Assembly: GCF_000019905.1 (NCBI RefSeq)
Contig: NC_010556.1
Coordinates: forward strand, 150,001-214,000
Reading direction: 5' to 3'
DNA length: 64,000 bases
Source: Exiguobacterium artemiae 255-15
GTDB lineage: Bacteria > Bacillota > Bacilli > Exiguobacteriales > Exiguobacteriaceae
Shown: positions 3,056-9,491 of the stretch, in pieces
Layout of the letters: every line of letters begins with the position of its first letter
Position numbering within the stretch: the first letter of the stretch is position 1
Program-made: the position numbers and the translations under genes
The notes under the pieces: model-generated
Seen by the model: the letters and a program-made list of their open reading frames with translations, nothing else
Databases searched by the model: none
What the model was told of the DNA's origin: nothing

Positions 3056-3964
3056 ATGAACATTGCATATATCAGCGTACCGTATCGTTATGGTCAAGGA
3101 AAACCGGGGACGGAGCAAGGACCAGCTGCCGTTGAACAGGCAGGATTACTCGAAACACTGGCAGCAAACGGACAGGAAGCAGTTCGCTACGGGGAAGCGG
3201 CTGTTTTGTCTGAAGATGCTGTTCGTGAAGAAGATCCGCAATTAAAACGGCTCGAAGGTGTTGTCCACACGACAAACGATTTACACTTGCTTGTACGTGA
3301 GGCGCTGACAGAGCAACGTTTTCCGTTACTCGTCGGAGGCGATCACAGCATGGCGATCGGAACGATTGCCGGTATGCGGCAAGTCGTACCACGTCTCGGA
3401 GTCATCTGGTTTGATGCACACGGCGATTTAAATACACCGGAGACTTCTCCATCGGGGAACATTCACGGAATGCCGCTGGCCGTTGCCTTAGGCGAAGGAC
3501 ACCAGCGTCTGACGGAAATCGGAGGGGACGGGGTTAAACTGCAACCGGAACACCTCGTCTTCATCGGATTACGTGATGTCGATGCAGGAGAACAGGAATT
3601 GATTGATCGTCTCGGTATCCGTGTCTATGATATGGAAGCGATTCGGACACGCGGGATGGATGCCATCATGAAAGAAGCCGTTGCCTATCTCAAAGAGACG
3701 ACAGATGCGTTTTATCTCAGCTTTGATATGGACGGGCTCGATCCAAGTCTGGTTGAAGGAACTGGGACACGTGTGGCGGACGGTATCATGCTTGATGATG
3801 CGAAGACCGTTTTACGTCACTGTGCCGAGCAGGATGAATTCATCGCAGCAGAATTCGTAGAGGTCAATCCTTTACTCGAAGAAGGAAACGGTACAGCGAT
3901 TCTTGCGAATGACTTGATTGGAAACTTGCTCCAGTATATGCGGACCCATCGTTTAGTAAAATAA
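3056..3964 (+). CDS. rocF: arginase (RocF-like)
   Basis: Hydrolyses L-arginine to ornithine and urea in the cytoplasm, the first step of arginine catabolism. The 302-residue length is typical. All three arginase signatures are present: GGDH (His97), WFDAHGDLNT (Asp120, His122, Asp124) and SFDMDGLDPS (Asp224, Asp226). Together these supply the binuclear manganese ligands. The ATG follows AGGGGAACAG at normal spacing. The gene is flanked by terminators on both sides, so it is probably monocistronic. An agmatinase or formiminoglutamase is less likely, given the close fit to arginase spacing and the short N-terminus. In Bacillales, an arginase gene commonly precedes the sigW-cdaA block, as here. 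Confidence 0.93.
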   Translation: MNIAYISVPYRYGQGKPGTEQGPAAVEQAGLLETLAANGQEAVRYGEAAVLSEDAVREEDPQLKRLEGVVHTTNDLHLLVREALTEQRFPLLVGGDHSMAIGTIAGMRQVVPRLGVIWFDAHGDLNTPETSPSGNIHGMPLAVALGEGHQRLTEIGGDGVKLQPEHLVFIGLRDVDAGEQELIDRLGIRVYDMEAIRTRGMDAIMKEAVAYLKETTDAFYLSFDMDGLDPSLVEGTGTRVADGIMLDDAKTVLRHCAEQDEFIAAEFVEVNPLLEEGNGTAILANDLIGNLLQYMRTHRLVK

Positions 3965-3971
3965 TGGATAG

Positions 3972-4008
3972 AACTTGAACTCTTTTCGTCAGAGTTCAAG
4001 TTTTTTTT
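3972..4008 (+). terminator. Rho-independent terminator after rocF
   Basis: A 12-bp stem, AACTTGAACTCT with AGAGTTCAAGTT, has a 7-nt loop and continues into a T run. Confidence 0.9.
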
Positions 4009-4027
4009 GTTACAATTCAAATTGAGA

Positions 4028-4054
4028 TGAAACATTATGTAGGTCGACTCCGTA
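4028..4054 (+). promoter_or_regulatory. SigW-type autoregulatory promoter
   Basis: TGAAAC (4028-4033) and CGTA (4051-4054) are separated by 17 nt, matching the known Bacillus SigW consensus (TGAAAC, 16-17 nt, CGTA). The element lies 37 bases before the sigW start codon, so autoregulation is the straightforward reading. Confidence 0.85.
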
Positions 4055-4090
4055 TAAGAGATTGACCGCATAGAGCGGGGGGTATTTAAA

Positions 4091-4654
4091 GTGGAAGAAA
4101 CAACACTACGCTTGATTGAGCGGGTGAAGCAGGGAGACCGTGATGCATTCGCGGCACTTGTTGATCTATATAAAGAAGGAGCCTTTTTGGTCGCCTTCCG
4201 TGTTTTACGGGATCGAATGGAAGCCGAAGATGCCACACAAGAAGCCTTTATCCGCGTATTCACCAAAATTGAATCGTATAATGCCCAGTGGAAGTTCCGG
4301 ACTTGGTTGTATCGGATCGTGACGAATGTTTCGATTGACCGACTCCGCAAAAAACGTCCGGATTATTCCCTTGATGCCGAGATGTCGGGGACTGAAGGAC
4401 TGACGTTGTATTCCCAGCTTGAAAGCAAGGACCAGTTGCCGGAAGATCAAGTCATTGATTCGGAACAACGACAAGATGTAGGGGAAGCCATCGCCGGTCT
4501 GCCGGAAAAATACCGGATTCCGCTTGTCTTGAAATATGTTGAAGATCTTTCGCTCAAGGAAATCAGTGAGATGATCGATTTACCCGTCGCTACAGTTAAA
4601 ACGAGAATTCATCGGGGACGCGAAGCGCTGAAAAAGCATTTCGGCAAACGATGA
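4091..4654 (+). CDS. sigW: ECF RNA polymerase sigma factor SigW
   Basis: Extracytoplasmic-function sigma factor directing the envelope and antimicrobial-peptide stress regulon. The 187 residues equal the length of B. subtilis SigW. Region 2 (about residues 20-90, with DATQEAFIRVFTKI and FRTWLYRIVTN) binds the -10 element and core enzyme. Region 4 (about 130-187, with LPEKYRIPLVLKYVEDLSLKEIS and VKTRIHRGREALKK) binds the -35. The start is GTG, eight bases after a GGGGGG ribosome site. The anti-sigma gene follows after 21 bases, so the two are co-transcribed. A SigW-type promoter directly upstream gives positive autoregulation. Confidence 0.95.
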   Translation: MEETTLRLIERVKQGDRDAFAALVDLYKEGAFLVAFRVLRDRMEAEDATQEAFIRVFTKIESYNAQWKFRTWLYRIVTNVSIDRLRKKRPDYSLDAEMSGTEGLTLYSQLESKDQLPEDQVIDSEQRQDVGEAIAGLPEKYRIPLVLKYVEDLSLKEISEMIDLPVATVKTRIHRGREALKKHFGKR

Positions 4655-4675
4655 GATGAGAAGGAGGCACTCACC

Positions 4676-5290
4676 ATGACACGAGAAAAAGTGTATGAAC
4701 GGATACAGGATTATTTAGATCAAAACCAACCTCCAGAAGACTTCAAACGACTTGAAGCGGAGTTGCGGGAAGCGAATGCGATGGACGAGTTCGAAGAGTA
4801 TCGGCTCCTCGATGCAGAGTTACGCGCGCTTTCAGCACCCAAGCTTTCGGCGGATTTTACATCCCGCGTGCTGGCACAACTGCCCGAACAGGTGGAACAA
4901 CCGAATGTGACTCCGCTCAGGAAGACATCCCGTTTCGGTGGGAAGATGAAGCAGTATCCGTTGCTTGCGGCAGCCTCGATTTTTATGTTGTTGTCGGTCG
5001 GTAGTCTCGGCGGCTATCTGACACAGGAAGAACATGATTTATCGTATACGAATGTACCGGGAATCGTCGCCGAGAACGGTGAAGTTGTCGTACCGGAAGG
5101 CGTCACCGTCAACCAGGACCTGTATGTCGAAGGCGGCAATGTCCGGATTGAAGGCAAGGTCAACGGAGACGTAATGACTGTCGACGGCAAAGCGTATACC
5201 GCCAGTGCCGGGAATGTCACAGGCGAAATTAAACAAATTGACCAACTCTTTGAGCGGGTCTGGTATGGAATTAAACGAATCTTCGAATGA
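4676..5290 (+). CDS. rsiW: anti-sigma-W factor RsiW, zinc-site-less
   Basis: Membrane-anchored inhibitor of SigW. It is expected to be released by successive site-1, site-2 (RasP) and Clp cleavage, as in B. subtilis. The layout matches: a cytoplasmic helical N-terminus (about 1-90), one transmembrane helix (about 94-115), and an extracytoplasmic domain (about 120-204) whose end (ASAGNVTGEIKQIDQLFERVWYGIK) resembles B. subtilis RsiW closely. The usual HxxxCxxC zinc motif of the anti-sigma domain is missing. There is no cysteine anywhere and no histidine in the N-terminal domain; the equivalent positions read E-L-R-E-A-N-A-M. Binding to SigW must therefore rely on the helical fold alone. Start ATG follows GAAGGAGG. 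Confidence 0.9.
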   Translation: MTREKVYERIQDYLDQNQPPEDFKRLEAELREANAMDEFEEYRLLDAELRALSAPKLSADFTSRVLAQLPEQVEQPNVTPLRKTSRFGGKMKQYPLLAAASIFMLLSVGSLGGYLTQEEHDLSYTNVPGIVAENGEVVVPEGVTVNQDLYVEGGNVRIEGKVNGDVMTVDGKAYTASAGNVTGEIKQIDQLFERVWYGIKRIFE

Positions 5291-5297
5291 GTCAGGT

Positions 5298-5322
5298 GGG
5301 ACGAGTCTAACTCGTCCCTTTG
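5298..5322 (+). terminator. weak terminator-like hairpin after rsiW
   Basis: GGGACGAG pairs with CTCGTCCC over a 5-nt loop, followed by only three T. It may reduce rather than block read-through from sigW-rsiW into cdaA. A TATAAT at 5326-5331 just downstream may belong to a separate cdaA promoter. Confidence 0.5.
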
Positions 5323-5370
5323 TGCTATAATGAAAGCTGTTTAAATCAGATGAGATAGGGGGCACGGTTG

Positions 5371-6231
5371 GTGAATTACTTCAACTGGCAACCACTTCAA
5401 TTTCAATTGTTGAAACTGGGAGAAAACGTACATTGGTACGATTATATTAACGATGTGATTGATATCGCGGTCGTAACATTCGTCATTTACCGTCTGATGA
5501 TCATTGTCAAAGGTACAAAAGCAGTCCAATTGATCAAAGGGATTTCGGTCATTTTGATCAGCTGGTTCTTAAGCGGATTCTTCGGACTGAAGACGTTACA
5601 ATTTCTGCTGAACCAAATCATTACGTACGGTCTGCTCGGGATTATCATCATTTTCCAGCCGGAATTACGACGGGGACTGGAACACCTAGGACGGACAAGT
5701 AAATTTTTCTCACGGAGCGCGATCAGTGACGAGGACGAACAAGTCCGGATTGTCGACGCGTTGGTCACGTCTGCACAGTACATGTCCAAACGCCGGATCG
5801 GGGCACTGGTCACGATTGAGCGGGAAACGGGACTTAGCGAATATGTCGAAACCGGCATTCCGCTTGGTTCTCAAATCACGAGTCAGTTATTGATCAACCT
5901 GTTTATTCCGAACACGCCCCTCCATGATGGGGCCGTCATCGTCCAACAAGGTAAACTTGCGGCAGCCGCTTGTTACTTACCGCTTTCTGAGAGTGCACAT
6001 ATCTCAAAAGATCTTGGAACACGTCACCGGGCAGCCATCGGTGTCAGCGAAGTGACAGATAGCGTGACGTTGGTCGTATCAGAAGAAACCGGTGGTGTTT
6101 CCCTTGCCATCAATGGTCGTCTGTACCGGGAGCTGGATGAAGAATCGCTCCGGACGAAGTTACTTGAAACGATTGTCAAAGCTGAACCGACGAATACTTC
6201 CTTCTTGAACTGGATGGGGGCGAAAAAATAA
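5371..6231 (+). CDS. cdaA: diadenylate cyclase CdaA
   Basis: Makes cyclic di-AMP from two ATP. This second messenger controls potassium and osmolyte balance and cell-wall homeostasis. About 286 residues: three N-terminal transmembrane helices (about 25-95) followed by the DisA_N/DAC domain with the catalytic DGA motif (LHDGAVIV) and the RHR motif (GTRHRAAIG). GTG at 5371 is preferred because GGGGG lies eight bases upstream; an in-frame TTG three bases earlier is also possible. The stop overlaps the cdaR start (TAATG). The order cdaA-cdaR-glmM is conserved in Firmicutes, where CdaR and GlmM are direct partners that modulate CdaA. Confidence 0.95.
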   Translation: MNYFNWQPLQFQLLKLGENVHWYDYINDVIDIAVVTFVIYRLMIIVKGTKAVQLIKGISVILISWFLSGFFGLKTLQFLLNQIITYGLLGIIIIFQPELRRGLEHLGRTSKFFSRSAISDEDEQVRIVDALVTSAQYMSKRRIGALVTIERETGLSEYVETGIPLGSQITSQLLINLFIPNTPLHDGAVIVQQGKLAAAACYLPLSESAHISKDLGTRHRAAIGVSEVTDSVTLVVSEETGGVSLAINGRLYRELDEESLRTKLLETIVKAEPTNTSFLNWMGAKK

Positions 6232-7517
6232 TGTTCGAAAAATGGTTCAATGAACGCTGGTTTCTTCGCATCGTTGCCGTCTTGCTTGCCGTCATGCTGT
6301 ATCTGATGGTGGCAGGAACCAATTCGACCGTCAAAAGTGATGCGGCGAGCCTGTTGCCGATCGCCGGTCAAGGCTCAGCAAAGTTTGACGTACCGGTATC
6401 CGTCAATTATGATGAAACGCAGTGGGTCGCCTATAATATTCCAGAAACCATCGAAACGACGGTTAAAGGACCATCCAGCAGTTTGACGATGCTCCGGCTC
6501 GTTAAAGACTTTGGTCTGTCGATTGACTTGACGGGTCTGGATCCCGGGTATCACCGGGTGCGACTGTCTGCCGACGGGTTTGGCAAAGATGTTGAAGTGA
6601 CACCAAAACAAGAAACAATTGAAGTATTCCTGGATAAAAAGGTCACAAAAGAAGTGCCTGTTCAAGTGGCACTGTTGAATAAAAACAAAATCGCCGAAGG
6701 GTATGTCGTCGGTGAAGCACAGCCGACCCAACAAACGGTCTCTGTGACCGGCGGGGCCGAAAAACTGCAGGCCATCACGGCGATTCAAGTTCCAATTGAT
6801 GTCACAGGCCGGGCGGAGACGTTTACGGAGTCCTTCAACGTCAAAGCAACGGATGCGAACGGAAATGCAATCAGTGCCACATATGATCCGGAACAGCTGG
6901 AAGTGACGGTTCCGGTCTATAAGGAAAGCAAAACGGTTCCGATTAACGTCGAAACAAAAGATGCGGTCAAAAAAGGGTATAAAGTCGTCAAGATTGTTCC
7001 GGTCACGACGGAAGCCCGCTTATATGGAACAAAAGAAGAACTGTCACGGATCGGTTCCGTGTCGACGGAAGCCGTTTCCTTAAAAGGATTAACGAAGACG
7101 GTCGATCGGACGATCAAACTGATTGAGCCGAACAACGTGACAGCGATGGAACCGACTTCGGTTACGGTCAGCATCGTCGTCGAGAAGGAAAATGCGAAAG
7201 CGACGACGGAAACCGTCGAGGATCGGGCTGAGAAAACAATTTCCGGTGTCACGGTAACGCTAAACGGATTTGATGAGTCGAAGTATACGATTGATTATGA
7301 ACAGACGATTGATCTCGTCGTCCGTGGAAGCGAAGCGGATCTTGCATCGATTGATGCGACAGATATTAAAGCCGTCATTGACGTGACCGGCTTAAAAGAA
7401 GGTACACACGGCTTGCCGATTTCGTATCAGACGTCAAAAGCGTTTGACGTACTTCGTCCGGATAATATGGATATCACGCTTAAAGCGGTTCCCCGGACAT
7501 CGGTCCAAGCCAATTAA
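6231..7517 (+). CDS. cdaR: CdaA regulatory protein CdaR (YbbR domain)
   Basis: Membrane-anchored extracytoplasmic protein that binds and regulates CdaA. An N-terminal hydrophobic helix (about residues 12-30) is followed by about 390 residues of all-beta YbbR-type repeats, recognisable from recurring patterns such as VPVQVALLNKNKIAEGYVV and VPINVETKDAVKKGYKV. Four repeats are the family norm and the length of 428 fits. The start overlaps the cdaA stop by one base, indicating translational coupling. The glmM gene follows after 29 bases. Confidence 0.92.
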   Translation: MFEKWFNERWFLRIVAVLLAVMLYLMVAGTNSTVKSDAASLLPIAGQGSAKFDVPVSVNYDETQWVAYNIPETIETTVKGPSSSLTMLRLVKDFGLSIDLTGLDPGYHRVRLSADGFGKDVEVTPKQETIEVFLDKKVTKEVPVQVALLNKNKIAEGYVVGEAQPTQQTVSVTGGAEKLQAITAIQVPIDVTGRAETFTESFNVKATDANGNAISATYDPEQLEVTVPVYKESKTVPINVETKDAVKKGYKVVKIVPVTTEARLYGTKEELSRIGSVSTEAVSLKGLTKTVDRTIKLIEPNNVTAMEPTSVTVSIVVEKENAKATTETVEDRAEKTISGVTVTLNGFDESKYTIDYEQTIDLVVRGSEADLASIDATDIKAVIDVTGLKEGTHGLPISYQTSKAFDVLRPDNMDITLKAVPRTSVQAN

Positions 7518-9269: not shown

Positions 9270-9425
9270 TCGGACAGAAGTGAAAGCGCCAGGGCTGACT
9301 ATGTGATAGGCAGCTGACGAGGTGGGGGTTTATCGAATCATTCGGCGGATGCCTCCCGGTACCATGTCAGTACCGTAAACTCATCTGAAATCGTTTAAGT
9401 GATTAGACGGACAGGCAGATGCGTG
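9270..9425 (+). promoter_or_regulatory. glmS ribozyme riboswitch
   Basis: Glucosamine-6-phosphate-dependent self-cleaving leader of glmS. The conserved cleavage-site region AAGCGCCAGGGCTG is at 9284-9297, with cleavage expected between A9285 and G9286. The conserved core GACGAGGTGGGGGTTTATCG and CGGCGGATGCCTCCCGG follows, and the 3' element GACGGACAGG lies near 9407-9416. When GlcN6P is plentiful the RNA cuts itself and the downstream mRNA is degraded, lowering GlmS. The outer boundaries are approximate. Confidence 0.95.
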
Positions 9426-9491
9426 ATGACAACTCTCGACAAGAGCCGTTTCCTCTTCAGGGAAATACTTGTAAATGGGAGAGAATGTATT

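Follow-up and report, generated by a model that had tools for sequence, protein, structure and literature searches.

Can a membrane-bound anti-sigma factor whose relatives carry a zinc site still hold its sigma factor once every ligand of that site is gone, and does such a loss change how the sigma factor is controlled? The sigW locus of Exiguobacterium artemiae 255-15 raises this question. It lies in a stretch of 64,000 nucleotides (contig NC_010556.1, positions 150,001 to 214,000; hereafter the window), where an earlier note, made from the letters alone, had described an RsiW homologue without zinc ligands and proposed that neither redox nor zinc state would affect SigW control at this locus. 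Whether zinc in membrane-bound anti-sigma factors is a sensor, a structural element or a relic is debated. In the crystal structure of the Bacillus subtilis SigW/RsiW complex the zinc ligands are C3, H30, C34 and C37 (PMC5358783), and RsiW (group AS245) is named as an example of the zinc motif in the available part of a classification of these proteins (PMC7406223). The same source puts class I anti-sigma domains without the motif at about 44% and describes related domains with and without Hx3Cx2C, both within the mixed groups AS19-1 and AS27 and between the paired groups AS33-1 and AS33-2 (PMC7406223). Zinc-free class I anti-sigma domains are thus an already known kind, and what the locus offers is a case within RsiW itself. 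The main text of PMC7406223 does not contain the word Exiguobacterium, the available part of PMC3171730 does not mention RsiW, and among open-licence papers we saw none that describes loss of the zinc site from the RsiW of an entire family.

A true rsiW behind a true sigW

Judged by sequence, the ORF at 4676-5290 is an authentic rsiW, and the gene that it follows is an authentic sigW (Table 1). The upstream product matches SigW in NCBIfam also under TIGR02948 (254.9 bits against a cut-off of 243.1) and in the PDB as 5wuq_A (E 2.3e-62). Its stop codon is followed by 21 bases and then by the rsiW start, immediately 5' of which stands the Shine-Dalgarno-like gagaaggagg, so that sigW lies directly upstream of rsiW. 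The RsiW protein receives no NCBIfam name above cut-off (NF052375, 26.1 bits against 100), and a single-sequence phmmer comparison with B. subtilis RsiW reaches only E 0.25. With a profile built from 21 family sequences, 5wuq_C (B. subtilis RsiW) is matched at E 1.6e-5 over positions 3-70, and hhalign places the family profile with zinc-type RsiW at 98.1%, which establishes the homology of the cytoplasmic domain. Full-length matches to RsiW of other families in the class (for example E 4.0e-30 over residues 3-201) extend that homology through the membrane helix and the extracytoplasmic domain; a search with the full-length protein gave a match in 50 of the 61 genomes searched, with the alignment reaching almost to the C-terminal end. 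The earlier note's identification of an RsiW homologue behind sigW, complete with the membrane and surface parts, is upheld by these matches and by the structure model. The extracytoplasmic part also shows a weak Pfam match to Bactofilin (E 1.2e-4, 22.7 bits, below the cut-off of 27.9).

Table 1. Features of the sigW-rsiW locus, in coordinates of the window
Feature	Position	Strand	Basis
SigW-type promoter-like site TGAAAC-N17-CGTA upstream of sigW	4028..4054	+	pattern scan
sigW, ECF sigma factor SigW	4091..4654	+	NF007223, 296.7 bits (cut-off 209)
rsiW, zinc-free membrane anti-sigma factor RsiW, 204 aa	4676..5290	+	ATG start
Cytoplasmic anti-sigma domain, residues 1-70, four predicted helices	4676..4885	+	profile match, fusion model
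Arg3, place of the first zinc ligand (Cys3 in B. subtilis)	4682..4684	+	alignment
Asp15, kept SigW-contact residue (D16 in B. subtilis)	4718..4720	+	alignment
E-L-R-E-A-N-A-M in place of Hx3Cx2C, residues 29-36	4760..4783	+	sequence, alignment
Tyr42 in helix 3, fixed in the family; Tyr at the aligned place of E. coli RseA	4799..4801	+	alignment
Transmembrane helix, residues 95-116	4958..5023	+	fusion-model helix 290-311; hydrophobic stretch
Extracytoplasmic beta domain and C-terminal helix, residues 121-204	5036..5287	+	model strands, last helix
Terminator-like hairpin in the rsiW/cdaA gap	5298..5318	+	9-bp stem

The model is of a read-through fusion of SigW and RsiW (mean pLDDT 81.7, pTM 0.43), which shows helices at the anti-sigma domain, the membrane helix and the extracytoplasmic beta domain but places these parts unreliably with respect to one another. 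One of its helices (166-209) runs across the artificial junction, and superposition of its SigW domains on chain A of 5WUQ and 5WUR, which covered the SigW part only, gave an rmsd of about 22 Å over 152-153 residues. We therefore dropped the model as evidence for the complex.

All four zinc ligands are absent

The earlier note had read E-L-R-E-A-N-A-M in place of HxxxCxxC and had seen neither a Cys in the protein nor a His ahead of the membrane helix, and on these points it was right: residues 29-36 carry the substituted motif, the 204 residues include no Cys, and the single His (in EEHD) lies C-terminal to the membrane helix. The loss goes further than it noted, as the fourth ligand, Cys3 of B. 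subtilis, had escaped it and is gone as well.

We mapped the ligands on an alignment of 193 distinct rows (14 from the same genus, 18 from its sister genus in the family and 161 zinc-type), on which the assignments depend. The first-ligand column holds Cys in 159 of the 161 zinc-type rows, Arg in 14/14 own-genus rows and Pro in 18/18 sister-genus rows; the H30 column holds Glu or Leu in the family; C34 falls in a one-residue gap common to both genera; and C37 corresponds to A35, with Leu in the sister genus. Because the two genera differ at the ligand positions, there is no conserved substitute at the zinc site itself. The zinc-type rows, apart from L099 and L139, were chosen by the motif, so the His and last two Cys columns are inflated, and only the first-Cys column and the count of 99/102 given below are free of motif selection; the column counts omit L107, L123, L166, L167 and L168, where the wrong ORF had been picked or the gene is frameshifted. 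Since the protein is without any Cys, no shift can restore the site, and the search for ligands at shifted positions or for a hidden Cys pair, in the sequence and in the alignment, yielded none.

The protein also falls outside the ZAS group as defined either by the zf-HC2 domain or by ligands. Pfam zf-HC2 (PF13490) is listed neither for RsiW of the window nor for the family rows searched (0/21, out of 23 distinct family sequences), as against 18/18 zinc-type rows, and the ligand set C/H-n-Hx3Cx2C is absent in 38/38 family genomes. Searches by Hx3Cx2C or zf-HC2 thus miss zinc-free RsiW proteins.

B. subtilis RsiW (5WUQ, 5WUR; AS245) and the family proteins share the position behind sigW, a four-helix cytoplasmic anti-sigma domain, one membrane helix, a homologous extracytoplasmic part and the acidic contact D16, kept here as D15; the family differs in lacking C3, H30, C34 and C37, in the deletion of one zinc-loop residue, in having Gln aligned with H12, and in its fixed Y42, D46, P55 and L57. 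As to the type of the B. subtilis site, PMC4960319 terms RsiW HHCC and the crystal structure of PMC5358783 has CHCC; the first ligand in our zinc-type rows is likewise a Cys.

The zinc-free state is fixed in the family and rare outside it

Each of the 38 family genomes, which span two genera, contains one rsiW match, and Cys is absent from the first 78 RsiW residues in 38/38; one genome (L019) has a Cys further on. A sequencing or assembly error in the N-terminal region, which the earlier note had raised as a way for its own reading to fail, is refuted by the recurrence of the same state in every genome of both genera, and we give it practically no credence.

For a view of the surroundings free of motif choice we used SigW as bait, which found SigW at E 1e-45 or better in 225 of 398 genomes of the class. 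Non-family genomes account for 187 of these, of which 102 were read and 85 were not, and Hx3Cx2C is kept at 99 of the 102 loci. The exceptions are L123, a frameshifted gene with CxxC visible downstream, and L099 and L139; at L107, L166, L167 and L168 the motif was found in another frame. Among named SigW-RsiW loci of Bacilli the motif is present in 68/68, a count from a set of 80 in which 12 (L238-L249, none from Bacilli by their titles) were set aside, in which the ORF picker favoured the motif-bearing ORF where several were open, and which may share some species with the SigW-bait set. In L099 (His to Asn) and L139 (His to Tyr) only the ligand His is replaced and the three Cys are kept, and these RsiW proteins are possible intermediate states.

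In a tree built from joined SigW and RsiW, whose 95 rows include 14 of the 38 family genomes, there is a single change of the label "no zinc"; it has support of 100/100 and recurs in 100% of 200 bootstrap trees. The stem of the family is long (0.66), and long branches meet at several places in the tree, one of which joins the family with L038. The sequences thus suggest that the zinc site was apparently lost once, in the family ancestor.

The gene is under selection and its partners are kept

With dN/dS of 0.02-0.19 over ten pairs, the anti-sigma domain is evidently under purifying selection and not decaying. Models for PrsW and for RseP/RasP are both matched above cut-off in the genome of the window. 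One other zf-HC2 protein is kept in 37/38 family genomes (here a protein with HLATCDDC), which makes the loss particular to RsiW; a zinc-sparing lifestyle, which we had considered, lost favour for the same reason.

A single match to TGAAAC-N17-CGTA, which we take to be the SigW-type promoter consensus, was found in a scan of the window, where 0.50 are expected by chance and at least one occurred in 40 of 100 shuffles, so that the match is not significant alone. Of 37 family loci scanned, 36 also have the pattern, with a spacing of 16 or 17 bases, in front of sigW; counted from a point 561 bases ahead of the sigW stop codon, it lies another 60-82 bases upstream. The genome holds 22 sites with 17-base spacing against 4 for the reversed control pattern. 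These promoter-like sites would allow sigW to regulate its own expression. Given purifying selection on the domain, the retained promoter-like site and the PrsW and RasP homologues in the genome, the family RsiW most likely works as an ordinary RsiW controlled by proteolysis.

Residues at the interface with SigW are kept in part. The column of Asp15 holds Asp in 161/161 zinc-type and 14/14 own-genus rows and Glu in 18/18 sister-genus rows, and K170 and R177 of SigW are kept in the family; the contact of D16 with SigW is described for B. subtilis (PMC5358783), and D15, K170 and R177 match the charged pair described for ECF245 and other groups (PMC7406223). H12, another RsiW contact in B. subtilis, is the residue that aligns with Gln. 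In SigW itself we observed 36 positions at which the family residues occur in fewer than 15% of 164 zinc-type rows, including 30, 33, 38, 40, 41 and 43 in region 2 and 143-145, 161, 162, 167, 184 and 187 in region 4; the departing residue is not always common to both genera. The sister genus has Phe at H174 of SigW, which contacts RsiW in B. subtilis.

Helix 3 resembles that of the zinc-free RseA

A family-specific feature of the domain is Tyr42, present in 32/32 family rows and 0/161 zinc-type rows (Leu 141, Met 9, Ile 6, Phe 4, Val 1), and D46, L52, P55 and L57 are further fixed residues of helix 3 and the loop that follows. Escherichia coli RseA, a zinc-free class I anti-sigma domain in a membrane protein that is removed by regulated proteolysis (PMC5358783), has W-x2-Y and a Leu at the places matching the family helix 3 and loop; the two share W/F-x2-Y in helix 3, Leu in the loop and a helix 4 of the SRVMA type. 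Pfam RseA_N is matched at E 0.05 or better by 17/21 family rows (best E 0.002) against 0/18 zinc-type rows, and hhalign to RseA gives 71% for the family profile against 1.4% for the zinc-type profile, confined to helices 3-4 (37 columns).

The likeness does not amount to membership in RseA_N (PF03872), for which our protein scores 16.1 bits whole and 17.1 bits over residues 1-70 against a cut-off of 24; the scores shown for family rows are 14.9-17.9 bits, and one of six had no match. RseA (1or7_C) comes eleventh in a PDB profile search, at E 0.92 and behind unrelated chains, and is not listed up to E 10 in a search with a single sister-genus sequence. The best whole-domain match of the family is RsiW. 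Helix 1 is three residues shorter in the sister genus than in the genus of the window.

We read these similarities as a change in place towards an RseA-like zinc-free domain, in which, on weak but consistent evidence, a helix 3 like that of RseA may have taken over from the zinc staple. Some of the family "replacements" may be drift, because the branch is long and the family SigW also departs at many positions. A more complete version is a tentative proposal that we hold to be somewhat less probable than its negation: one vertically kept sigma/anti-sigma pair would have passed entirely from a zinc-stapled to a zinc-free state, losing the four ligands on a single branch, with an aromatic, RseA-like helix 3 as the new staple; SigW would have changed to match, and the geometry of binding may have changed too. 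If true, it would show how zinc and zinc-free anti-sigma groups interconvert.

How the zinc-free RsiW may work

We consider it probable, with good though incomplete confidence, that the protein is an authentic and working RsiW, that its anti-sigma domain needs no zinc to fold and to bind SigW, and that SigW is released through proteolysis, not through zinc or thiol chemistry. The family ancestor would have lost all four ligands by substitutions and a one-residue deletion in the zinc loop. The zinc would have acted as a structural staple joining helices 1-3, a role that would since be filled by the packing of hydrophobic and aromatic residues around helix 3 and the next loop (Y42, L45, L49, L52 and L57), in the manner of RseA and other zinc-free anti-sigma domains. 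SigW would be held at the membrane by helix 1, through D15 to R177 in sigma region 4, and by helices 3-4, and would be released when envelope stress sets off proteolysis through the PrsW and RasP homologues. In this account the loss, its fixation in the family, the single change on the tree, the purifying selection, the retained promoter-like site and contact residues and the protease genes are observed; the fold, the binding of SigW, the proteolysis and the packing role are inferred.

Two other accounts of the same data concern the RseA-like segment. The binding geometry could have changed, with RsiW sandwiched between SigW domains 2 and 4 as RseA is and not wrapped as in B. subtilis; the RseA-like sequence from helix 3 through the loop to helix 4 points that way, as do the 36 departing SigW positions and the Phe at H174 in the sister genus, but SigW retains K170 and R177, RsiW retains D15 (as Glu in the sister genus), and the domain as a whole matches RsiW better than RseA, so we regard this as unlikely. 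That RseA_N is the best Pfam match of the domain could also mean that recombination put the zinc-free anti-sigma domain of some other protein in place of the N-terminal half. We think this very unlikely, since the alignment with zinc-type RsiW runs through the full domain, with helix 1 and the ADFTxxVMAxLP motif of helix 4 included, and since the likeness to RseA is limited to 37 columns of helices 3-4 at a score below cut-off.

Two further accounts turn on the ligands. Their loss, at positions otherwise almost invariant, might signal a degenerate domain, with SigW controlled otherwise or not at all; since dN/dS is low, the locus keeps its gene order, contact residues and promoter-like site, and the protease genes are still there, we rate this as even less probable than a domain swap. 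Least credible of the four is a metal still bound through other residues (His, Asp or Glu): the domain is rich in acidic residues, and in some own-genus proteins residues 5 and 7 are His, but there is no Cys in the domain in 38/38 genomes and no His column common to both genera, and in the window's protein no His precedes the membrane helix. The functional, zinc-free RsiW released by proteolysis is the reading that we carry forward.

For the proposal that SigW control here is insensitive to redox or zinc state, the outcome is divided. It is probably true of this protein, but it does not set it apart: B. subtilis RsiW keeps the zinc site and is nevertheless reported to be insensitive to oxidation and to the absence of zinc (Devkota et al., 2017; PMC5358783), so this insensitivity is no novelty of the present protein. 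B. subtilis RsiW also binds SigW without zinc (PMC5358783), and on the findings of that paper, as far as its available sections go, the loss removes a feature already reported as a non-sensor. The loss of the zinc site fits a structural and dispensable role of zinc in RsiW, and its extent across the whole family, in a gene under selection, supports that side of the debate. As a natural evolutionary experiment, the family further provides orthologous pairs for dissecting the zinc-free replacement.

Neighbouring genes and variation at the locus

Downstream of rsiW the order is cdaA, an ORF at the place of cdaR, glmM and glmS; the position of rsiW between sigW and cdaA counts in favour of its orthology. 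The ORF at the cdaR/ybbR place in the cdaA-glmM interval (6231-7517) has no NCBIfam match at E 1e-20, and a glmS ribozyme (9274-9433) lies upstream of glmS, behind glmM. Terminator-like sites number 6 in 3950-5450, against a shuffle mean of 1.8.

Nucleotide comparison within the genus (L001 against L002, L004-L008 and L010) revealed patchy identity. The first 150 bases of rsiW (4676-4825) are 0.95-0.99 identical between L001 and its five nearest loci (L002, L004-L007), and the stretch of 5276-5425, comprising the rsiW end, the hairpin and the cdaA start, is 0.99-1.0 identical among the same loci, with flanks often at 0.77-0.9; L005 matches the window genome at 0.95-1.0 from 5276 to the end of the compared stretch, over more than 1 kb. 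Either recombination or a conserved regulatory stretch would account for this pattern. In the sister-genus loci (L020-L037) rsiW apparently begins at a TTG one base ahead of the sigW stop, and the resulting TTGA overlap suggests translational coupling of the two genes.
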